Shown in pieces: positions 4,517-15,424 of a stretch of 64,000 nucleotides of DNA (the stretch's first letter is position 1; each line of letters starts with the position of its first letter). Source of the stretch: Planctomycetota bacterium (lineage in GTDB: Bacteria; Planctomycetota; Planctomycetia; JALXBF01); NCBI GenBank assembly GCA_026991575.1, contig JALXBF010000105.1, positions 62,001 to 126,000 of the forward strand. Direction: 5' to 3'. The notes under the pieces are model-generated. The model was not told the origin of the DNA. It did not search any database and worked only from the letters and a program-made list of their open reading frames with translations. A program made the position numbers and the translations under genes.

Positions 4517-5635
4517 TCAGCTGACGGCGGCCGTGACGGCCTGCTGCGGCGGCCGGTCGATCAACTCGTAGAACACGTTCCGCTGACGAGGCTCGTAGCC
4601 GGCTTCACGGATCGCCTCCTTGATCTCCTCCAGCGTCAGGTGATACACGGTGCCAGCGGAGGCGACGACGTTCTCTTCGATCATTAGGCTGCCCATGTCG
4701 TTGGCGCCGAAGAACAGCGCCATCTGACCGATCTGGCGCCCCTGCGTTACCCAGGAACTTTGCATGTTGGCGATGTTATCCAGGAACAGCCGCGACACAG
4801 CGAGCATGCGCAGGTACTCGAAGGAACCAACGGTAGGAACGTGCCCCATGCGGAAGTAGGGGCTGTTCTCATCGCCTTTGGACTTCTGGAAGGTCCAGCA
4901 GATGAACGCTGTGAAGCCTCCGGTCTCGTCCTGCAGATCCCGGATCCGTTGCAGGTGCTCGACCCGATCCTCCAAGGTCTCGACGTGGCCGAACATCATC
5001 GTGGCCGTGCTCCGTCCGCCCAGCTCGTGCCACGTGCGCATTACCTCAAGCCACTGGTCCGTCATGCACTTGCCCCGGGTGATCTGCTTGCGTACCCGAT
5101 CCACGAGGATCTCGGCACCACCGCCGGGCAACGAACCCAGCCCGGCCTCCTTCAGTCGCTGAAGCACCTCGCGTAGCGGCAGCTTGGAGATCCGATGGAA
5201 GTGCCAGATTTCCGGGGGGCTGAAGCCGTGGATATTTAGCTGCGGGTAGCGCGCTTTCAGATCCCGCAACAGATCCTCGTACCACTCCAGCGGCAGCGTC
5301 GGATGGAGGCCTCCTTGCAGCAGGATCTGGTCGCCGCCCAGAGCAAGGGTCTCGTCGATCTTGCGGTACAGCTCCTCCCGTTCCAGCAGGTAGGCGTCCG
5401 GGTCGCGCCGCTTACGGAAGAACGCGCAGAAATCGCACTCGGCGGCGCAGATGTTGGAGTAGTTGATGTTACGATCGATGTTGTACGTGCGGTAAGGCTC
5501 CGGGTGGAGCCGGCGGCATACCTCATCGGCCGCGCGTCCCAAGGCGTGCAGGTCCGGACAGCGCAGCAGTTCGAGCGCTTCGTCTGCTGAGATCCGCTCG
5601 CCGTCAACCGACTTCCGCAAGATTCGCTCGATCAT
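4517..5635 (-). CDS. mqnC: Cyclic dehypoxanthine futalosine synthase (radical SAM)
   Basis: A 372-residue radical SAM enzyme that cyclises dehypoxanthine futalosine in the futalosine pathway of menaquinone biosynthesis. The [4Fe-4S] motif CxxxCxxC is at C63, C67 and C70, preceded by YNIDRNINYSN as in the MqnC/MqnE/CofH group. The start is the ATG at 5635, whose product begins MIERIL as in known MqnC proteins. A longer frame up to 5725 would run deep into mqnA. The gene therefore overlaps the 3' end of mqnA by about 32 bases, suggesting translational coupling. Distinguishing MqnC from MqnE rests on overall similarity and the linkage to mqnA. Confidence 0.9.
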   Translation of the reverse strand: MIERILRKSVDGERISADEALELLRCPDLHALGRAADEVCRRLHPEPYRTYNIDRNINYSNICAAECDFCAFFRKRRDPDAYLLEREELYRKIDETLALGGDQILLQGGLHPTLPLEWYEDLLRDLKARYPQLNIHGFSPPEIWHFHRISKLPLREVLQRLKEAGLGSLPGGGAEILVDRVRKQITRGKCMTDQWLEVMRTWHELGGRSTATMMFGHVETLEDRVEHLQRIRDLQDETGGFTAFICWTFQKSKGDENSPYFRMGHVPTVGSFEYLRMLAVSRLFLDNIANMQSSWVTQGRQIGQMALFFGANDMGSLMIEENVVASAGTVYHLTLEEIKEAIREAGYEPRQRNVFYELIDRPPQQAVTAAVS

Positions 5636-6431
5636 AGAACCTAAGCTCCGCGGCATGCTCCAGCAGGCCCAGTTCAGCCGCCCATTGCGCAAAGAGGCAG
5701 AGGCCTTCGAGTTCTGCGTCGCCAAGGTCGTAGCAAATGTTCCGTGTCAGGTAGCTCAGGCAGTCCTCATAGGCCAGCCCCAGCTCGCAAGCGGCCGCAC
5801 GGGCAATCATGCTGGCATTGGCCAACCCCTGTTCCTTCGCCCGATAGAACGCCTGCTCGCTTTCGCCCAGGTCCACGTCGGGGGCCACGGCCCAGAGGGC
5901 AAAGACAAACGGCAGCCCCGTCAGCTCAAGCCACGCCTCCGCAAGGTCGACTTCGTGGGCGAACACACCCGGGGGAGCAGGCAACATGCCACGATCCCCG
6001 ATGGCCAACACGGCGTCGGTTGCCGTGGCCTCGGGCGGCCGCCCCAGTGGCAACGGCTCGACCCGGGGCCTGATCCCATAAAGCTTCTTCAACCACACCT
6101 GGACCAACGCCGCGCTGGTGCGGGACCCTTCGTCCAGAGCTAGCGTTCGGATTGACGGAAGGGGCACTCTGCTGTAGAGCTTGACGCTCCGCACCGGGCC
6201 GCGGGCGGCAATCGCAATGCCGGGCAGAATGCGGTAGTCGGAGCCGCGGAAGTACTCCACCGAAGGGATCAGCGCCACGTCCAGCGTACCGCCGCTGAGC
6301 CCGTCGGCCAGTCGACTGGGCACGTCGAGCAGCAGCTGAGCTTGGGGGGCCAGCTCCTGGAGCCGGTAGATCAAAGGCCGTGCATTCAGGTAGCGGACCG
6401 CACCGATCCGCAGCAGACGCGTCTGGTTCAT
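5604..6431 (-). CDS. mqnA: Chorismate dehydratase (menaquinone futalosine pathway)
   Basis: A 275-residue MqnA-family protein with a periplasmic-binding-protein-like fold that acts in the cytoplasm, dehydrating chorismate to 3-enolpyruvyl-benzoate, the first step of the futalosine pathway. The N-terminal RIGAVRYLNARPL and the later DVALIPSVEYFR segments are family hallmarks. It is the first gene of an mqnA-mqnC pair, with a TATAAT-like -10 box about 60 bases upstream and an AGGTGG just ahead of the ATG. The mqnB, mqnD and mqnE genes are not in this window. Confidence 0.92.
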   Translation of the reverse strand: MNQTRLLRIGAVRYLNARPLIYRLQELAPQAQLLLDVPSRLADGLSGGTLDVALIPSVEYFRGSDYRILPGIAIAARGPVRSVKLYSRVPLPSIRTLALDEGSRTSAALVQVWLKKLYGIRPRVEPLPLGRPPEATATDAVLAIGDRGMLPAPPGVFAHEVDLAEAWLELTGLPFVFALWAVAPDVDLGESEQAFYRAKEQGLANASMIARAAACELGLAYEDCLSYLTRNICYDLGDAELEGLCLFAQWAAELGLLEHAAELRFYDRANLAEVG

Positions 6432-7404: not shown

Positions 7405-8811
7405 TCAAGGTGAGTCGTCTGCGGTATCGCTCGATATCCCGTCGCTGTCCGGCTCCGCAGCCAACCCCCATCGCAACGGCTCATCCTGCACGTAGCGCTT
7501 GCCCAGCCGCAAGGCGATCTCCGCCTTGCACAGCTCATAGCCGAGATAGAACGCATGCGCCGGGTCGATCGGCTCCTCGCTCAACAAGCGGCGAAAGAGC
7601 CGGAACGGATCGTCATCACGCCGATGTCCGGAGCGGTTGATCGCGTGCAACTTGCCTCCCGCTGCGAACAGGCGAAAGTTCTTGTCACGCACCCGAGCGG
7701 CGACGTCACGCAGGTAATCTTCATCCGGCTCAACACAATCCGGATCGCGCAGCATGACCAGCAGCGGTTCCAGGTGCTTGGGCAACGTCCTGTGCCGGAG
7801 TGCGTACCAAACCAGGCGGCGGGCCACGTCGAGCTCACGCACTGCCGTGCGGCACCAGTTGATGACGCTGGTGGTCAGGACAGTGCGGATGCCAAGCTCC
7901 TGACAGATTGCAGCCAACAGCACGTTCACCCCTGCCGAATCAACATCGGTCAGCTCGGTGACATTCCCGACCCCCATTAACAGCTCCGCCTGTGGCCACC
8001 GGCGCCGTGCTTCGGCGTAGCGGAGCAGCGACGCGGTGAACCCGAAGCCGATCGGCTCCAGGATCGGATCGATCCGGTATGGTACCCCCGCCTGCTCGAG
8101 CCGCTCGACGGTGCGCTCCAGGCTGCGCCAGTCGCCCGGATGGGCGGGAATCGCAACAACGGCACAGCCCCAATCCAGCGCATGTTCGACCGTGCCCTCA
8201 TGCACGCTCAGCACCAGCTCGGCCCCGGCACGAGCGCCTTCGGCAGCCTCCTCGGGGTCAAGCGTGTCTACCGACACGCGCAGCCCCAACTCACGCAGAC
8301 GCCGCACGCAATCGCCCACGCCCCGCCAGCGGTAACCGGGCTCACAGCCGACGTCGATAATGTCGGCGCCCTGGCGCCGCAGCGCCATCGCTTGCCGGCG
8401 AATCTGCGGCCAGCTCAGCCGAGGGCAGTGGTTGATCTCCGCGATGATCTCGATGTCGTAACCCCCGTAGTCCTTGGGCCGTCGATTCTGGCCCCCGAAG
8501 TAATCGGGCAGCTGCCAGATCTCCTTAGGGCCCTTCTGGGTTCGGACGCCAAACCGCTCGGCCACCACCTCGGTAGGGCCTCGACACAGTCCGGGCAGCA
8601 GGATCAAGTCGACCGGTCGCGGCAGCTTCAGGTGGCGCGCCACCCACTCGGTGGTCATCAGCGCCGCAACGGAGATCTTCAGCACGCAGATCTCCGCTTC
8701 AAAACCGTGCTGGCGCTCGAGCTCGGCGACCGTGCGGCGCAACAACGGCTCGGCCAGCTTGCCGGTCACGAACGCAATGCGTCGGGGCAGATTGGGCGGC
8801 CGCGTGCTCAT
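7405..8811 (-). CDS. DUF6513 + dihydropteroate-synthase-like protein of H4MPT synthesis
   Basis: A 468-residue protein. The N-terminal part (about 1-125) matches the DUF6513 type of domain, starting with RIAFVTGKLAEPLL. The central part (about 150-400) is a TIM-barrel related to dihydropteroate synthase, with segments such as GADIIDVGCEPG and SVDTLDPEEAA. In C1-metabolising bacteria such fusions sit in tetrahydromethanopterin clusters and are thought to participate in joining the pterin to the ribofuranosyl-aniline moiety. The neighbours (pterin dehydratase, SDR and, further up, methanofuran genes) fit this. It is not a normal folate-pathway FolP, because of the extra N-terminal domain and the context. 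The exact reaction is inferred. Confidence 0.8.
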   Translation of the reverse strand: MSTRPPNLPRRIAFVTGKLAEPLLRRTVAELERQHGFEAEICVLKISVAALMTTEWVARHLKLPRPVDLILLPGLCRGPTEVVAERFGVRTQKGPKEIWQLPDYFGGQNRRPKDYGGYDIEIIAEINHCPRLSWPQIRRQAMALRRQGADIIDVGCEPGYRWRGVGDCVRRLRELGLRVSVDTLDPEEAAEGARAGAELVLSVHEGTVEHALDWGCAVVAIPAHPGDWRSLERTVERLEQAGVPYRIDPILEPIGFGFTASLLRYAEARRRWPQAELLMGVGNVTELTDVDSAGVNVLLAAICQELGIRTVLTTSVINWCRTAVRELDVARRLVWYALRHRTLPKHLEPLLVMLRDPDCVEPDEDYLRDVAARVRDKNFRLFAAGGKLHAINRSGHRRDDDPFRLFRRLLSEEPIDPAHAFYLGYELCKAEIALRLGKRYVQDEPLRWGLAAEPDSDGISSDTADDSP

Positions 8812-8819
8812 CGCGGCGT

Positions 8820-9182
8820 CTAACGGTTCTCAGGCCGAACCCAGTTCTTGGGATAGCCCGGCAGGGCGCTGCCCTCTGGTGGGCGCCACAGGGCGATCTC
8901 TTCGATGCGCCGGGCAAGCTCAAAGTCTTTGTCCGTGATCCCGCGGGCCGAGTGGGTCTGGAGTTTGACGGTAAGCTTGGCGTAGCCTAGGGTCAGATCC
9001 GGATGGTGCCACGCGGCTTCCGCCACATAGCCGATGGCGTTAGCCAGAAGCAAAGTATGGGCAAAACCGGGTGTGATGTACGTGCGACGAAGCCAACCGT
9101 CACGGTATTCCCAGCCGGGCAGTTCTTGCGCGAGCCGTTCCCGCACCTCCGCTTCGCTGTAAACTCGTTCTTCACGTGCCAT
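8820..9182 (-). CDS. Pterin-4a-carbinolamine dehydratase-like protein
   Basis: About 120 residues and a full-length match to the PCD/DCoH family. It contains the signature HHPDL...Y..L.VKLQTH..RGIT, in which the two adjacent His and the later His bind the pterin. In animals and Pseudomonas this enzyme recycles 4a-hydroxy-tetrahydrobiopterin. No aromatic amino acid hydroxylase is in this window. Homologues recur in bacterial H4MPT gene clusters, where a role on a methanopterin intermediate is suspected but not shown here. The ATG at 9182 gives the standard N-terminus; the longer frame adds 15 untypical residues. It ends 9 bases before the next gene. Confidence 0.88.
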   Translation of the reverse strand: MAREERVYSEAEVRERLAQELPGWEYRDGWLRRTYITPGFAHTLLLANAIGYVAEAAWHHPDLTLGYAKLTVKLQTHSARGITDKDFELARRIEEIALWRPPEGSALPGYPKNWVRPENR

Positions 9183-9236
9183 GGCTCCGATCTCCGTCGC
9201 GCCCGAGTTCACCGTTTGGCAGACCACGTTCGGGGA

Positions 9237-10004
9237 TCAGCCACGCACCGCGCCACCATTGACGCGCACGATCTGACCGGTGATGAACGCAGCGTCATCA
9301 CTGCAGAGGAATGCAACCGTGGCAGCCACATCCTCCGGCTCGCCCCAGCGCCGTAGCAATGCCTCCCGCTCCGCCCGTTCCTGCCAGGGCCGCGGAGCGG
9401 ACCGGCCCCAAGCGGTGCGAATCCACCCGGGGGCCACACAGTTGACGCGTACCTCCGGCGCCGCTTCGACTGCCAAGCTCTTGGTAAACGCCATGACCGC
9501 TCCTTTCGCGGCGGCGAACAGTTGCCCGCTGTCACCTTCCATACCGGTTTCGGCTTGGTCCCAGCCAATTGTGACAATTGCCCCTCGGCCCCGCCGTTTC
9601 ATTTTCCTGAGCACGTGGCGACAGACCAGTATGGTGGCGCGCACGTCGACCTGCCAGAGCAACTCCAGCTTGCGTTCGAACGACCACCGCTTCGCGTCAC
9701 CGGTCAGGATATCCGCACCAGCGATGTGGACCCAGGCTTCAAGCCCTCCCCAACGTTCCCAGCAGCGTTCGACCAGTTGGGCGGCGGCGTCGGTCCCTTG
9801 CAGATCCGCAGCCACCACGTCAGCCTCACGGCCAAGCGCGTGGATCCGGTCGGCGACCTCCCGAGCAGCGTCAACGCGGCAACGACAATGGACCAGCACG
9901 TCCCAACCGCACTGAGCCAGCCTCAGGGCCGTGGCCCGTCCGATTCCGCTGGACGCCCCTGTCACCACCACGCGGCGCCGGCGCGGCGTTCGTGTATCGC
10001 TCAT
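9237..10004 (-). CDS. Short-chain dehydrogenase/reductase homologue with defective active site
   Basis: A 255-residue SDR-fold protein. The NAD(P)-binding glycine motif TGASSGIG (residues 15-22) is intact and the C-terminal VNGGAVRG ending is typical. The catalytic tetrad is not intact: the YxxxK tyrosine is Phe (F163, with K167 kept), the usual serine region reads TIGWDQ (G147, W148), and the NNAG motif is HIAG. The fold may bind nucleotide and pterin without classical reductase chemistry, or use different chemistry. A GAGGAGG 12 bases upstream supports the start. Placement between PCD and a HEAT gene in the cofactor cluster suggests work on a pterin, which is inference. Confidence 0.85.
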   Translation of the reverse strand: MSDTRTPRRRRVVVTGASSGIGRATALRLAQCGWDVLVHCRCRVDAAREVADRIHALGREADVVAADLQGTDAAAQLVERCWERWGGLEAWVHIAGADILTGDAKRWSFERKLELLWQVDVRATILVCRHVLRKMKRRGRGAIVTIGWDQAETGMEGDSGQLFAAAKGAVMAFTKSLAVEAAPEVRVNCVAPGWIRTAWGRSAPRPWQERAEREALLRRWGEPEDVAATVAFLCSDDAAFITGQIVRVNGGAVRG

Positions 10005-10033: not shown

Positions 10034-11368
10034 TCACCGCTGCGAGGCTTCCGCGCCCGCAGCGTGCGAAACATAGCGGGCAAACTCTTCGGCCTGCACC
10101 CGCTCCACGACACGCTGCGCAATACTACGCACGGCCGGGTCAGGATCGTCGCAAAGCGACTCAAGCACGTCGACGGCTTCGGTGTTGTGCTGGGCGACGA
10201 GAGCCAACGCCATGCACGCCGCCCGCCGAAGCAACGGGTCGCGGCTGCGCACTGCCGAATGAACGGTGTGAAACGCCGTTGGACTGGTCGCAGCCGGCGT
10301 CGCCAGCGCAATCAGCGCGCCGATTCGACGGTCAAGTTCCACGCGAAGGCCAGCTTCCAGGAATCGCAGCGCCGAGTACCAGTCCCCGGCATGCACCCCG
10401 ACAATCATCTTCCACGCCTCGCCCAGTGCAGTACCCCCGAGCTCGACCACTGCGTCGCGTCGTTTGTCCAGGGCAACCGCTTCCAACACACGGACGACAG
10501 CGGCGCGCTGCGAGCCATCTGGTCGACAGTGAGCCAGTGCCAGGGCGGCAGCCAGAGCCACCGTGTCTTCCTCGCCTTCCACGGCTCGAAGCAACGCTGG
10601 CAGCGCCGCCTCGGCGTCATCCTCAGCCAGGGCCAGCCCGACGGCAGCACCGAGCCGCTCTTCTCGCGTCTGGCCCGTCCGCAGCATATCCGCCAGCACG
10701 GGCACCGCCGGACCGCCAACTTTGCCCAGCGCGCAGTAGGCTGTGAACCGCAGCAGAGGCTGTTTGCCATGGGTCAGCGGCACCATGTACGGGACGGCGT
10801 CGGCGGCAGCTCGACCGAGCCGAGCGGCCGTCTGCAGGGCCGCGGTCTGCATTTGACGATCGGCGCTCTCCAGCGCGCGGATCAACAGAGGTACTGATCG
10901 CCGGCCGCCGCCGGCTAAGCCGCGTACCGCTTGCTCGCGCACAGCACTATCCGGATCGTTGAACGCAGCATGAACCTCGGGAAAGTCCGGAAACTCGTCA
11001 GGGGCAACCCGAGCCAGCGCGACAATCGCTTCGTGTCGAAGCAGGCTATTGCCGGAGCAGAGCTGCTCGCGGATACGCGGCACCAACGGACGAGCCGCCG
11101 GGCCGATTCGGCCGGCGCCCATGAGCGCCACGGCGCGCACATTCGGATCTCCGTGCGCCAGCAGCCGCTCCAGCCCGGGCACAGCGGCTGCGCCGAGTTT
11201 GACCATCTGCTCCACAGCCCGTAGCCGTTCCGATGGATCACCCGAGCTAGCCTGCGCGACCAGCACGTGAACGTCCAAACCAGAACGTTGCAGAGGACTT
11301 CGCAGCCAGGCCAGCACCGCCCCGGTCACACCTCCGGCAACAACCAAATAGACATGTCTTGCACTCAT
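10034..11368 (-). CDS. Membrane-anchored HEAT-repeat protein
   Basis: A 444-residue protein with one N-terminal hydrophobic helix (about residues 5-22, containing YLVVAGGVTGAVLAWL) followed almost entirely by paired amphipathic helices. Recurrent patterns such as GDPNVRAVALMGAGRIG and DPDSAVREQAVRGLAG are classic HEAT/PBS-lyase-like repeats. Such domains are protein-protein interaction scaffolds; no catalytic motif is seen. GGAG lies 7 bases before the chosen ATG; the longer frame reaches into the promoter region. It is the first gene of a HEAT-SDR-PCD-DHPS transcript driven from the promoter at 11431-11459. A link to C1 cofactor enzymes is positional only. Confidence 0.82.
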   Translation of the reverse strand: MSARHVYLVVAGGVTGAVLAWLRSPLQRSGLDVHVLVAQASSGDPSERLRAVEQMVKLGAAAVPGLERLLAHGDPNVRAVALMGAGRIGPAARPLVPRIREQLCSGNSLLRHEAIVALARVAPDEFPDFPEVHAAFNDPDSAVREQAVRGLAGGGRRSVPLLIRALESADRQMQTAALQTAARLGRAAADAVPYMVPLTHGKQPLLRFTAYCALGKVGGPAVPVLADMLRTGQTREERLGAAVGLALAEDDAEAALPALLRAVEGEEDTVALAAALALAHCRPDGSQRAAVVRVLEAVALDKRRDAVVELGGTALGEAWKMIVGVHAGDWYSALRFLEAGLRVELDRRIGALIALATPAATSPTAFHTVHSAVRSRDPLLRRAACMALALVAQHNTEAVDVLESLCDDPDPAVRSIAQRVVERVQAEEFARYVSHAAGAEASQR

Positions 11369-11430
11369 GTCGCGCCACTCCTGCGCACCGCCCGCCAGGC
11401 TCGCAAGCGGCACCCCGCCTAACGGTTTCC

Positions 11431-11459
11431 GATATATCAATTCAGCAGCCCGGAATCAA
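11431..11459 (-). promoter_or_regulatory. Promoter for the HEAT-SDR-PCD-DHPS transcript
   Basis: On the minus strand a TTGATT box (11454-11459), an exact 17-base spacer and TATATC (11431-11436) lie in a locally AT-rich patch, giving a start near 11424 and a leader of about 56 bases before the HEAT gene. This is one of the best sigma-70-type matches in the window. Confidence 0.55.
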
Positions 11460-11727: not shown

Positions 11728-12300
11728 TCAGCATGAGTCGACTTGCTGCATGAGCACTTCCACTGACGGGAATCGTTCCTGGAGCCAGCGGAAATACCCA
11801 TCGACAATCCCCTCACGGGCCGCTTCCGCGATGCTCCCGGCCACGCGCCGTTTCAGCAACACGAGCCGCCGTGCGCCACACGCGGCGGCGATCAGCAGTG
11901 CGATCGAATCAGAGGTCACATCCCAACTGGTCGGCAGCCTGATGCCCAAGCACTCCTCGCTCTCCCGAAGCAACGCCACCGGATCGGCCAGCATCACAGC
12001 GTGCTCGCCGCTGGCGACCTCTTCCAGCGCGGTCGCTAGCGGCCAGGTTGCCGGGGCAGCGGCCGCAGCGAGGATCTGCGTGTTGAACCGCATCGCCTCG
12101 ACGGCCAGCCAGTGTGCCGCTTCCTCCGACAGCTGCCACCATTGAGACCAGCGGCGCACCAGATCTGCCACCTCACCGCCGCCGACCACGATCAGCACGG
12201 ACTCCCCTCTGAGCAACTCGTCGACCGCTCGCCGAATGACCGGCACGCCGGCCGGCGTGCGCAACAGGCTACCACCGCACTTAAGCACCACGACCGCCAT
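11728..12300 (-). CDS. Amino-acid-kinase-fold protein, MfnE-like
   Basis: A 190-residue protein of the amino acid kinase (AAK) superfamily, starting VVVLKCGGSLL, the lysine and glycine loop that binds ATP phosphate in aspartokinase or uridylate kinase relatives. A second glycine-rich loop, IVVGGGEVAD, follows. It is shorter than aspartokinase and comparable with the small AAK MfnE, which phosphorylates 5-(aminomethyl)-3-furanmethanol phosphate in methanofuran synthesis. The start at 12300 overlaps the MfnF-like gene by 20 bases, a tight coupling that supports the same pathway. The MfnE role is inferred from fold plus neighbourhood. Confidence 0.78.
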   Translation of the reverse strand: MAVVVLKCGGSLLRTPAGVPVIRRAVDELLRGESVLIVVGGGEVADLVRRWSQWWQLSEEAAHWLAVEAMRFNTQILAAAAAPATWPLATALEEVASGEHAVMLADPVALLRESEECLGIRLPTSWDVTSDSIALLIAAACGARRLVLLKRRVAGSIAEAAREGIVDGYFRWLQERFPSVEVLMQQVDSC

Positions 12301-13357
12301 GTGCCGCTCCGCGCGCAAGCTGGACCAGTGCCCAGGCCGGCCCGCACCTGGAGATCATCTCGCCGGCCAGCTCACCGAGCGCCAGCACAGGCCGGCGCCA
12401 CCCGAGCTGGCTGAGTGCCTGCCGCGCCAGAAACTCCCCTTCGCCGGCCACGATTACCTGCTCGACTGCTGACCGTGCAGCACGCAGTCTGGTGGCGATC
12501 GCGCGGCAGAGCTCGGCGCAGGCGGCCGCGGCCACGTGCTCGGCAATCCGTGCCAGTTCCTGCGGCTCAAATCGGTCCGCGTCCAGACACATGGTGCGTG
12601 CCAGACGCTGTGCTGCGCAGAGGCGGGTCATGGGCCGGCCGTCGGCGGTCTCGCAACATGCGGGATCCTCGGGCAGATCGCCCGTCAGCAGGAACGCGTC
12701 ACCGACGGTCGCGAACAGCTCGCGGGCAACCGGGACCATTCGGCCACGCCAGGGAACGCTACCAACCAGCATGGCCACCGGTGTCCGGCGTACGCCCAAG
12801 TAGAGCAACTCCCGTGAGATCAGCCGCGTAACGTCTTCCAGACCGTCTGCCCGAACGGTGCCACGGTGCAACAGAACGATGTCCGTGGTGGTCGAGCCGA
12901 CATCGATCAGCAGCGCGGTAGCCGGCTCGATAAGACGTGCAGCCCATTGCGCCAGGGCCAGCCAGTTCGCGGCGGCGACGGAACTGGGCTCCAGCCGGGC
13001 ACGGGCCAACGGCACGAACTGACCGCGCGTCGTCCACACAAGCGTCCGGCAGTTGGCCCAGGCCAACGTCTCCAGCGCGTGCTCAACGGCCGCCAGGACC
13101 GCCTGGACCCCCTCATCCTTCGACACGAAGCAGTCGCACAGCTCCGCGGTCATCGTCACCGCCAGCTTCTCCGGCACCGGGCAAGCTGCCAAGAACGTGA
13201 CCAGTTCGTCCGCCAGCCGTTGCGGCGCACGCCAGACAGCAAAGGGCCTGCTGGCGGCTCTTCCTGAACTATCGGCCAGCTTGAGGTTTGCACCACCGAT
13301 ATCCAGGCCGACGATGTACGCGGTGTCCGAGTTGCGGTCCTCCTTCGCGCGGCCCAC
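12281..13357 (-). CDS. ASKHA/hydantoinase-fold protein, MfnF-like (methanofuran synthesis)
   Basis: A 358-residue protein related to the hydantoinase A/oxoprolinase fold. The phosphate-1 loop is GLDIGGANLKLAD near the N-terminus and the phosphate-2 loop is LIDVGSTTTDIVLL near the middle. Archaeal members of this H4MPT-linked family include MfnF, which couples the activated aminomethylfuran to glutamyl-tyramine. The adjacent MfnE-like kinase would provide the activated substrate and the nearby ATP-grasp protein the glutamyl partner. The start is a GTG at 13357; an AAGGAGG lies just inside this frame but no ATG, GTG or TTG follows it, so the exact start is uncertain. Confidence 0.8.
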   Translation of the reverse strand: MGRAKEDRNSDTAYIVGLDIGGANLKLADSSGRAASRPFAVWRAPQRLADELVTFLAACPVPEKLAVTMTAELCDCFVSKDEGVQAVLAAVEHALETLAWANCRTLVWTTRGQFVPLARARLEPSSVAAANWLALAQWAARLIEPATALLIDVGSTTTDIVLLHRGTVRADGLEDVTRLISRELLYLGVRRTPVAMLVGSVPWRGRMVPVARELFATVGDAFLLTGDLPEDPACCETADGRPMTRLCAAQRLARTMCLDADRFEPQELARIAEHVAAAACAELCRAIATRLRAARSAVEQVIVAGEGEFLARQALSQLGWRRPVLALGELAGEMISRCGPAWALVQLARGAAHGGRGA

Positions 13358-13425: not shown

Positions 13426-14376
13426 CTAATGACACTCCGGCGTCAGTGGGCCAGCCAGTTCACGCAGGAAGAACAGCCTGCCAGGCTGCGTTGGCATGAA
13501 CGATGAGGGCACCCATGGGTCGGGGCCATACCGCAGCGTCATCCACAGGCTCATTCCCTGCCACTGCATGCCTCGACCAAGTACCCCATCGGCACCGCCA
13601 ATGATCCAATCAGCCCCCAGGAACAGGCCGGGGCCGATCGTGTTCGCATAGGCCGGGACCAGCGTGGTCCGACTCTTAAAGCTGGTGATTGCATTCTGTT
13701 CGATCGTCAGCGGGTGAAGTTTGGCAGCGATCCTGTACGGCTGGCTCTTCCAGTCGTCGACCGAGTCGAATTCCGCAGCGAAATGTGGCTCCCAGAATGC
13801 GATGTGGCAAACCCTGCCAATGCCAAAGATCACAACCAGCTCCGCGCCCTGCTTGCGCAGATCCGCGATGCGTGCGGGGTACTCCGGCAGGACATCCTTG
13901 GTCGCGAAATGCCGTTGCGAGGGCGGCACGGTTAGCTCACCCAAGGGCCCGTAGAAAGCCTCCTCCATCGCGTTTTGGAATGCCCCGGGGTTACTGGGCG
14001 GCAGCGTGTTGCCCTGCGCATCGCTCCACTCATCCATATTGAACCCCCACACGTGCTCGCAGGAAACGTTCCATTCCTTCAGGAAATAGACCGCCCACCT
14101 GTACATGCCCATCGGGCCGACCGGCAGGATGAGAGCAATCGGGCGGCCATCACGTCGTGCACGGTAGATAGCGCGTGCAATCTCGTGGCCCATCTTGACG
14201 TCGAACTCGGCCAGGTCGTCACACGGGATCGGTTCGAATCGCTCGTGCCACCAGGGCTGGCGTTCCGTGATCGCCTCAGGGGGGTTACTGCAGAGTTGGT
14301 CGATCTTGGCCAGGTCCCAGCCCGCCGGGAAGAACCCTTCCAGCATCGAGCCGGCAAGCGTGCTGACGAGATCCAT
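13426..14376 (-). CDS. Divergent glucosamine-6-phosphate deaminase (NagB)-fold protein
   Basis: A 316-residue protein of the NagB/6-phosphogluconolactonase superfamily. The NagB motif FNMDE is kept (D115, the catalytic base position). The second motif, normally G.G.DGHIAFNEP, reads [13 protein letters not shown], so the conserved Asp is Val189, whereas H191 and E196 remain. It is also longer than NagB (about 266) at its N-terminus. Classical GlcN6P deamination is therefore doubtful, and a related phosphosugar isomerisation is possible. GGGAGGTG lies 5 bases before the ATG. It sits between the MfnF-like and MfnD-like genes in the same direction, suggesting a cofactor-linked role, but none is known to me. 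Confidence 0.8.
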
Positions 14377-14419: not shown

Positions 14420-15424
14420 TCACTGCATCGATCGTAGCGTGCCGTCGGGCCAAAAACAAACCGGGTCGGCTGCGGGAACGGCCTCGGACGCTGTTGTGTC
14501 CGTCAACAGAACGGCTGCCAGATTGATCCCGGTAGCAGCCGCCTGGGCCACGAACGAGGTGGTCAAGCGGGGGTTGACCTCCACGACCATCGGCTCTGCC
14601 AGCCCGCGGCCGGACGCCCGCCACGGGAAGACCAGATCGACGCCCACGAATCCCCGTTCGCCGCGGAACAGTTCGGTCAGCGGTCGTACGATTCGGTGGG
14701 CTTGCTCGGCGAGGTGAGCCGGCAACGGGATGGCGCCCCCCTCGTAGCGAAACCCGGCATCGTCACAGGCAATCCATTGGTAAGCCGGCGGCAGGAGCAC
14801 GATGCGGGTTTCGGCCAGAACCATCGCCACACTGGCACTCAAGCCGCAGCGCAGGGGGCTCACGCACAGCAGCCCAGCATCGCTCTGCGGTGCCTGCGCC
14901 GGAGAAGTCGTCAGCATGATCCCCTCACAGCCGGCACCGCAGCGCGGCTTGACGACCGCCAGTTCCGGGCCAATGGCACCGCTGCGCAGTGGCCGGTGCG
15001 GCACATGGGCCACCCCGAGTGACGCCAGCAGCTCACTGGTACGAACCTTGTCGCTGAACAGCGCCGTCCAGTACGGCGACAGGTTCAGCAGGCGGTGGCT
15101 GGCGGCAAACTGCCGCACAAGGCGGCTCAGCACACCGTCGCACTCAGGCGCGATCAACAGAAGCGTGTCGCAACGGTCCGCCAACTGCTCCAGCAACGCG
15201 TGCCAACGGTTGCCCACGAGCGGTTCGATCCCTTCCTCTAGCCGCACCCACTCCCGGAAGCACTCATGCACGGCGCAAAGACAAGAGGACACAGGTGGAC
15301 TGCATGCGCGAAGCTGCGCGGTTGCCCAGCGAAGCATCGCAGCGCCTTCGCGCGCCAGTCGCCGCGAAACCGTTGCCACCCCGCATCCCCCAGCCATGAC
15401 GTGTTCGTAGACAGCCACCTTCAT
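14420..15424 (-). CDS. ATP-grasp ligase, MfnD-like (glutamate ligase of methanofuran synthesis)
   Basis: A 334-residue ATP-grasp protein. It starts with [11 protein letters not shown], has the nucleotide-binding [14 protein letters not shown] segment mid-protein and ends with FVGVDLVF...[11 protein letters not shown], the acidic/Asn metal-binding motif of the fold. Archaeal MfnD ligates glutamate to tyramine, and bacterial methylofuran carries related glutamyl-amine or tyrosine groups. Linkage to MfnE- and MfnF-like genes supports this. The ATG at 15424 has GGAG 8 bases upstream and overlaps the stop of the small upstream ORF (ATGA). Whether the acceptor is tyramine or tyrosine cannot be decided. 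Confidence 0.78.

Follow-up and report, generated by a model that had tools for sequence, protein, structure and literature searches.

Genes of the tetrahydromethanopterin (H4MPT) pathway occur in planctomycetes. The gene usually responsible for the last step of H4MPT synthesis, Afp, is reported as not recognised in planctomycete genomes in the part of PMC5020050 cited here. Another route to this step is known from Methylobacterium extorquens, where activity has been reported for DmrA, a DHFR homologue which, according to the excerpt of PMC6193120 used here, occurs almost exclusively in alpha-proteobacteria. According to the same source, AfpA rescues a dmrA deletion of this species on methanol. 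Excerpts of PMC1971073 leave open a missing-DHFR gap of similar kind for ThyX bacteria and describe a Helicobacter pylori DHPS that is fused to a flavin-dependent dihydropteroate reductase. Within the short-chain dehydrogenase (SDR) proteins, PTR1 and FolM are defined by the motifs TGX3RXG and YX3K (excerpts of PMC1971073 and PMC13259868). In the open-access library searched we found no paper on dihydromethanopterin reductase together with a short-chain dehydrogenase, nor on planctomycete methanopterin together with an SDR.

Here we describe an SDR gene in the window, the 64,000-nucleotide stretch of planctomycete DNA that was analysed. The protein is a concrete candidate for the planctomycete gap at the last H4MPT synthesis step (as described in the cited part of PMC5020050). 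Its family probably supplies the missing enzyme that finishes this coenzyme for one-carbon compounds.

Sequence and structure of the SDR protein

The SDR is encoded on the minus strand at 9237..10004, where the initial annotation had placed it (255 aa; ATG at 10004, with GAGGAGG upstream; stop codon ending at 9237). It belongs to the SDR superfamily, with matches to PF13561 (169.3 bits) and PF00106 (129.8 bits). From this ORF and its Pfam matches, together with conservation, clade and co-occurrence with Mch, we regard it as an SDR with a rebuilt active site and a candidate dihydromethanopterin/dihydropterin reductase.

Residues are numbered from M1 at 10004, following the initial annotation. 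Translation and alignment with E. coli FabG and FolM bear out its reading of the active site: F163 stands in the column of the catalytic Tyr, K167 is kept, and the Ser region reads TIGW (T145-I146-G147-W148) with W148 in the Ser column. The alignment adds a third tetrad replacement absent from that annotation, D120 in the Asn column. The Asn-Ser-Tyr-Lys tetrad is therefore D120, W148, F163 and K167, with Lys alone kept, and the whole active-site set consists of D120, W148, D149, Q150, F163 and K167. The loop before F163 is two residues longer than in FabG. The nucleotide-binding glycine motif TGX3GXG is intact (TGASSGIG), as had been noted.

An AlphaFold2 model of the protein (pLDDT 93.4) had its best structural match in FabG (2ph3; Z 33.5, 2.3 A over 240 residues), and a fold other than SDR was rejected by the structure matches. 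PTR1 is absent from the structure matches listed, and nothing was concluded from this. No NCBIfam model reached its cut-off among the best 25 of 224 families listed, and annotation will therefore probably stay at the generic 'SDR family oxidoreductase'. The curated PTR1/FolM models scored 138 bits against a cut-off of 288 (NF006598) and 129.6 bits against 325 (NF012208); instead of the PTR1/FolM motifs the protein has TGASSGIG and FAAAK. The models matched in those 25 families and in all three Pfam matches are SDR models and not those of the DmrB/AfpA flavoproteins, and DHFR_1, the family of DmrA and DHFR, is absent among the Pfam matches.

The genome of the window encodes a second, FolM/PTR1-like SDR directly downstream of mch (L130:9874-10725; G000:C60:19877-20725, minus strand). 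This protein has TGAARRVG, an Asp at the Ser position and the Tyr; its highest-scoring NCBIfam model is that of pteridine reductase, with 179.8 bits against a cut-off of 288. In a tree of 44 proteins, 24 members of the window family form one clade (100/99), and the second SDR with its orthologues forms a separate one (99/99). FabG groups with ordinary paralogues, and the window family also stands apart from E. coli FolM, which has a very long branch and an unsure placement.

Conservation among orthologues

The orthologue set comprised 110 sequences, namely the window protein and those of 109 loci (L009-L117; 29 listed and the best 80 named loci). Most titles of the named loci are planctomycete, a few read only 'bacterium' and four Candidatus Kuenenia. 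These last contigs, titled Candidatus Kuenenia stuttgartiensis (L039, L084, L110, L114), carry the SDR; the titles may be wrong. Removal of duplicates left 104 distinct sequences, the window's included, with one truncated row.

Position 163 is Phe in 103 of the 104 sequences and Tyr in one, and Ser is found at position 148 in none of them. D120, W148, D149 and K167 are invariant. Among the 36 positions tabulated, those identical in all 104 sequences also include D98, L100, T101, K112, G147, G154, G157, W194, T197 and W199. Q150 is Gln in 101. The three Gly of TGX3GXG are kept in 103 sequences, the remaining row being the truncated one. All seven paralogues from the same genome (L002-L008) have Tyr at position 163. 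The single orthologue with Tyr comes from Singulisphaera acidiphila (L042:8001-8732) and carries it within an otherwise standard motif, which indicates that the position tolerates Tyr.

The initial annotation had proposed to align orthologues and reasoned that a return of Tyr and Ser in other genomes would make the changes a mutation or an error. The substitutions are conserved, and with Phe in 103/104 and Trp in 104/104 sequences, mutation or sequencing error as their source is ruled out. Its view that the protein is unlikely to be a normal reductase agrees with the same counts (Tyr in 1/104, Ser in 0/104): the family probably does not consist of ordinary ketoreductases. The motif HIAG, which it had listed as a departure from NNAG, is present at positions 93-96 of the window protein but varies within the family. 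Of the 104 sequences, 48 begin this motif with N, 26 with H, 11 with L, 9 with C and 6 with Q, and HIAG was rejected as a functional feature.

Gene neighbourhood

In the window, the SDR gene is followed on the minus strand after 9 bp by a PCD gene (pterin-4a-carbinolamine dehydratase-like; 8820..9227, GTG start; PF01329 with 93.6 bits, NF002017 above cut-off) and, 8 bp further, by a DUF6513/TIGR00284 DHPS-like gene (dihydropteroate synthase-like; 7405..8811, minus strand). The DHPS-like protein matches PF20123 and PF00809 above cut-off and TIGR00284 with 232.5 bits, below the cut-off of 256.65. Directly upstream of the SDR, across a gap of 29 bp, lies a gene for a HEAT-repeat protein (10034..11440, minus strand; PF13646). 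Three further minus-strand genes encode an amino-acid-kinase-family protein that resembles the methanofuran kinase MfnE (11728..12318; PF00696; NF040622 with E 2.2e-12, below cut-off), an MfnF-like, H4MPT-linked C1 transfer pathway protein whose gene overlaps the MfnE-like gene (12281..13357; TIGR03123 with 273.6 bits, above cut-off), and an ATP-grasp protein that resembles MfnD, a tyramine-glutamate ligase (14420..15424; PF02655; NF040722 with 33.1 bits, far below cut-off). The stretch 13426-14376 (minus strand), flanked by the MfnD- and MfnF-like genes, presumably encodes a glucosamine-6-phosphate deaminase relative. Just downstream, the region 4517-6431 (minus strand) includes a VitK2_biosynth (PF02621) gene and an ORF that resembles MqnE/MqnC of futalosine menaquinone synthesis.

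Comparison of 80 named loci, of which 71 have at least 1.5 kb downstream, placed the DHPS-like gene directly downstream of the SDR and on the same strand in 32/71; this arrangement, with the SDR directly upstream of DUF6513 in a DmrB-like slot, is not found in the other 39, and in the window PCD intervenes. The compared flanks contain beta-RFAP synthase in 23 and PabB in 20 of the 80 loci; at least one probed gene is present in 45 and none in 35. In G020, the surroundings of the SDR contain no probed gene. The initial annotation had linked the SDR to the pterin dehydratase next to it. PCD does adjoin the SDR in the window, but it lies beside the SDR in 3/110 loci, the window among them, and in G165 and G150, and it was rejected as the main SDR partner. 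The more general links are those to the DHPS-like gene and to the presence of Mch.

Three genomes were inspected because their SDR and mch genes are close together. The gene order is mch, MptN-like ligase, CitG-like and PTPS-like parts in one ORF, SDR, PCD, DHPS-like and PabB in G165, where a small unassigned ORF precedes the CitG-like ORF. It is mch, MptN-like, CitG-like, SDR, PCD, DHPS-like and PabB in G150, with no PTPS, and mch, MptN-like, CitG-like, PTPS-like, SDR, DHPS-like and PabB in G100. A single ORF with CitG-like and 6-pyruvoyltetrahydropterin-synthase-like parts inside an H4MPT cluster was observed at L132:8517-9938.

Co-occurrence with Mch

The distribution of the SDR was compared with that of Mch, a marker of H4MPT, in one draw of 236 genomes of the phylum, using a profile for the SDR and PF02289 for Mch. 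The profile detected the SDR in 20 genomes at 338 bits or more (next match 180 bits), and Mch was present in 21, the same 20 and G213. This gives 20 genomes with both, none with the SDR only, one with Mch only and 215 with neither; across the phylum the association is largely one of shared ancestry. Within the class (397 genomes; SDR at E 1e-60 or better), the SDR was found in 365 and Mch in 369 genomes, with 350 carrying both, 15 the SDR only, 19 Mch only and 13 neither (Fisher p 8e-9 in a test that ignores kinship); some absences were deduced from gaps in the genome numbering, and the totals agree with the search tallies. A hand count of the assemblies with 60 contigs or fewer gave 101 genomes with both genes, six with neither (G010, G338, G358, G386, G402, G417) and no discordant one. 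Fragmented assemblies may explain most of the 34 discordant genomes, except those of family f7.

Two genomes with the SDR only, G442 and G572, carry DUF6513, and G572 has a beta-RFAP-synthase-like gene near the SDR. Four f7 genomes from two genera (G279, G394, G495, G602) and G398 have the SDR without Mch and without DUF6513. Q150 is gone from the four f7 proteins, and one of the four lacks D149 too, so the f7 SDRs may have another role and D149 is not required throughout the family; G398 keeps the full motif. G010, an f7 genome in which Mch and this SDR were not found, has a DUF6513 DHPS-like gene, 36% identical to that of the window, beside PabB (L160, G010:C1:4276000-4289000). G213 has Mch and a DHPS-like gene; among this SDR, AfpA/DmrX above cut-off, second-SDR orthologues and DHFR, only a DHFR was found in it. 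Its cluster (L131, G213:C49:16001-36000) contains mch, MptN-like, CitG-like and MfnD/F/E-like genes, PCD and the DHPS-like gene.

AfpA/DmrX and the proteobacterial clusters

Among the 21 genomes with Mch in the phylum draw, none has a match above the cut-off of TIGR02700 or TIGR02699 (AfpA/DmrX); weak partial matches to TIGR02700 occur in 20 and to TIGR02699 in 7 of them. Mch was also found on 36 plasmid records, of which six were examined (Paraburkholderia, Azoarcus, Aquabacterium, Azospirillum, Thiodictyon, Cupriavidus). A flavoprotein gene overlaps the start of the DUF6513 gene in the first three, and the only PDB relative of the flavoprotein is 3wis/4mwg, 'putative dihydromethanopterin reductase (AfpA)'. 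The slot before DUF6513 is not always that of a reductase, since in Azospirillum it is occupied by a kinase-like protein (sole PDB relative a kinase), with a DHFR-family gene nearby. The Thiodictyon stretch examined has no annotated DUF6513 gene, and the Cupriavidus record is unannotated.

Proposed reaction

The tie to Mch and the DHPS-like neighbourhood suggest that the SDR is probably a pterin-pathway enzyme, in line with the noncanonical pterin enzyme considered in the initial annotation. We propose, with a probability of roughly 55%, that the window SDR is a dihydromethanopterin reductase that replaced DmrB/AfpA by non-orthologous displacement and that may, in certain lineages, act on dihydrofolate as well. 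Reduction of a dihydropterin C=N bond is suggested jointly by the persistent absence of Tyr alongside retention of Lys and nucleotide binding, the two invariant acidic and three invariant Trp residues, the tie to H4MPT and the DmrB slot. Unlike a ketone, a C=N bond can be reduced without a Tyr hydroxyl, as in DHFR and in the second PTR1 step; this would account for the lasting loss of Tyr.

The proposed reaction would be 7,8-H2MPT + NAD(P)H -> H4MPT. NAD(P)H would bind to the intact Rossmann fold, with K167 holding the nicotinamide ribose, and the pterin would lie over the nicotinamide, helped by the invariant W148, W194 and W199. Hydride would be transferred to C6, and the proton for N5 would come from an aspartate (D120 or D149) or from water. 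The substitutions and their conservation, the tie to Mch, the gene context and the lack of AfpA/DmrX matches above cut-off in the 21 Mch genomes are observed; substrate, cofactor and proton donor are inferred. In the excerpt of PMC7540600 cited here, imine-reducing enzymes of other folds can have Asp or Glu as proton donor; the SDRs described there that reduce imines still rely on Tyr, which counts against the proposal. Further points against it are G213, which has Mch but lacks the SDR, the four f7 genomes and G398 with the SDR but no Mch, the discordant genomes of the class, the loci without a DHPS-like gene directly downstream or without any probed gene, the second PF00186 copies in three Mch genomes described below, and the kinase-like protein in the Azospirillum slot.

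A broader reading, which we put forward only tentatively, is that of a new dihydropterin reductase class. This would be a FabG-like SDR lineage in which Asn, Ser and Tyr became Asp, Trp-Asp and Phe, and which would reduce C=N bonds for H4MPT and folate alike in planctomycetes that have no recognised DHFR, DmrA or DmrB.

Other reductases and alternative functions

The SDR could instead be the dihydrofolate or general dihydropterin reductase of the cell, with a FolM-like function and an incidental link to H4MPT. We consider this unlikely. We examined 43 hand-picked, non-random genomes for DHFR by PF00186 alone and for second-SDR orthologues at E 1e-42 or better; the former was found in 18 and the latter in 20. 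All 14 genomes without either have this SDR, and all 12 genomes without this SDR have a PF00186 DHFR or the second SDR (p = 0.003, only a guide because the choice was not random). These 14 genomes also count in favour of the main proposal. G495 and G602 retain the SDR, and neither Mch nor DUF6513, PF00186 or the second SDR was detected in them. PF00186 was likewise not found in the other two of the four f7 genomes (G279, G394) or in G398, and PabB lies near the SDR in G279, G495, G602 and G398, not in G394. The pattern in f7 and G398 fits, but does not prove, a shift to folate or another pterin after loss of H4MPT. A general role in folate reduction agrees poorly, however, with the close tie of the SDR to Mch in the phylum, with its presence where DHFR exists (e.g. 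G005, G100, G287) and with the H4MPT-type genes, such as beta-RFAP synthase, at its loci. A second PF00186 copy is present in three Mch genomes (G015, G287, G299), where it could be DmrA-like, and also in the Mch-less G402 and G417.

Slightly less probable still is a role in another reductive step of H4MPT synthesis, for instance the step that turns the ribofuranosyl ring into the ribitol of methanopterin, for which we know of no assigned enzyme. The tie to Mch and the position near DHPS-like and beta-RFAP synthase genes in many loci would fit such a role, but the Tyr of SDRs would be expected to take part in such a carbonyl-type reduction, and a step confined to H4MPT does not predict the SDR in the four f7 genomes and G398 without Mch and DUF6513. 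The corresponding slot is, moreover, occupied by DmrB in three beta-proteobacterial clusters.

The replacement of three of the four tetrad residues and the gene spacing of 8-9 bp in the window could also be read as signs that the SDR has lost catalysis and acts as a subunit, structural or regulatory, of the DHPS-like protein or of PCD. The initial annotation had mentioned a subunit role, for which we found no evidence. We hold the dead-subunit reading to be quite improbable: K167 and the new polar and aromatic set are invariant in 104/104 sequences and the glycines are kept in 103, which is more than a scaffold should need, and the SDR gene is often away from the DHPS-like gene. The least probable explanation is that the second SDR is the dihydromethanopterin reductase and the window SDR does something else; its TGX3RXG motif, its best NCBIfam score and its place beside mch in the window's genome speak for it, but its distribution does not follow Mch, as 10 of 11 f3 genomes, all of which carry Mch, lack an orthologue (E 1e-42 or better; next match 4e-34), Mch-less f7 genomes have one, and in the five other genomes compared (G005, G015, G162, G242, G405) it lies on another contig or far from mch.

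Comparison with known systems

If the SDR is a dihydromethanopterin reductase as proposed, this reaction arose at least three times in bacteria from unrelated folds (DHFR, flavoprotein and SDR), and loss of the Tyr can turn an SDR to a new use instead of inactivating it. The protein is also a candidate for the DHFR activity of planctomycetes without PF00186. The tentative new class, if real, would be a third unrelated bacterial dihydromethanopterin reductase that also fills in for the missing DHFR.

The putative, FMN-dependent DmrB/AfpA of beta-proteobacteria is encoded in the same slot, directly ahead of the DUF6513 DHPS-like gene, in three H4MPT clusters and shares the proposed reaction, whereas its fold and cofactor are unrelated to those of the window protein. 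DmrA resembles the window protein in the proposed reaction and in a mechanism that uses NAD(P)H without flavin, but belongs to the unrelated DHFR family. The Helicobacter pylori fusion resembles the window in coupling a dihydropterin reductase to a DHPS-type protein; it is fused and flavin-dependent, whereas the window has separate genes and an SDR. PTR1, FolM and PruA are likewise SDR folds that reduce dihydropterins, yet they have TGX3RXG and the Tyr of YX3K, whereas the window clade, a branch of its own, carries TGX3GXG and Phe. Closest in fold and sequence among the PDB matches listed is FabG, the 3-oxoacyl-ACP reductase, whose tetrad residues Asn, Ser and Tyr correspond to D120, W148 and F163 in the window SDR.
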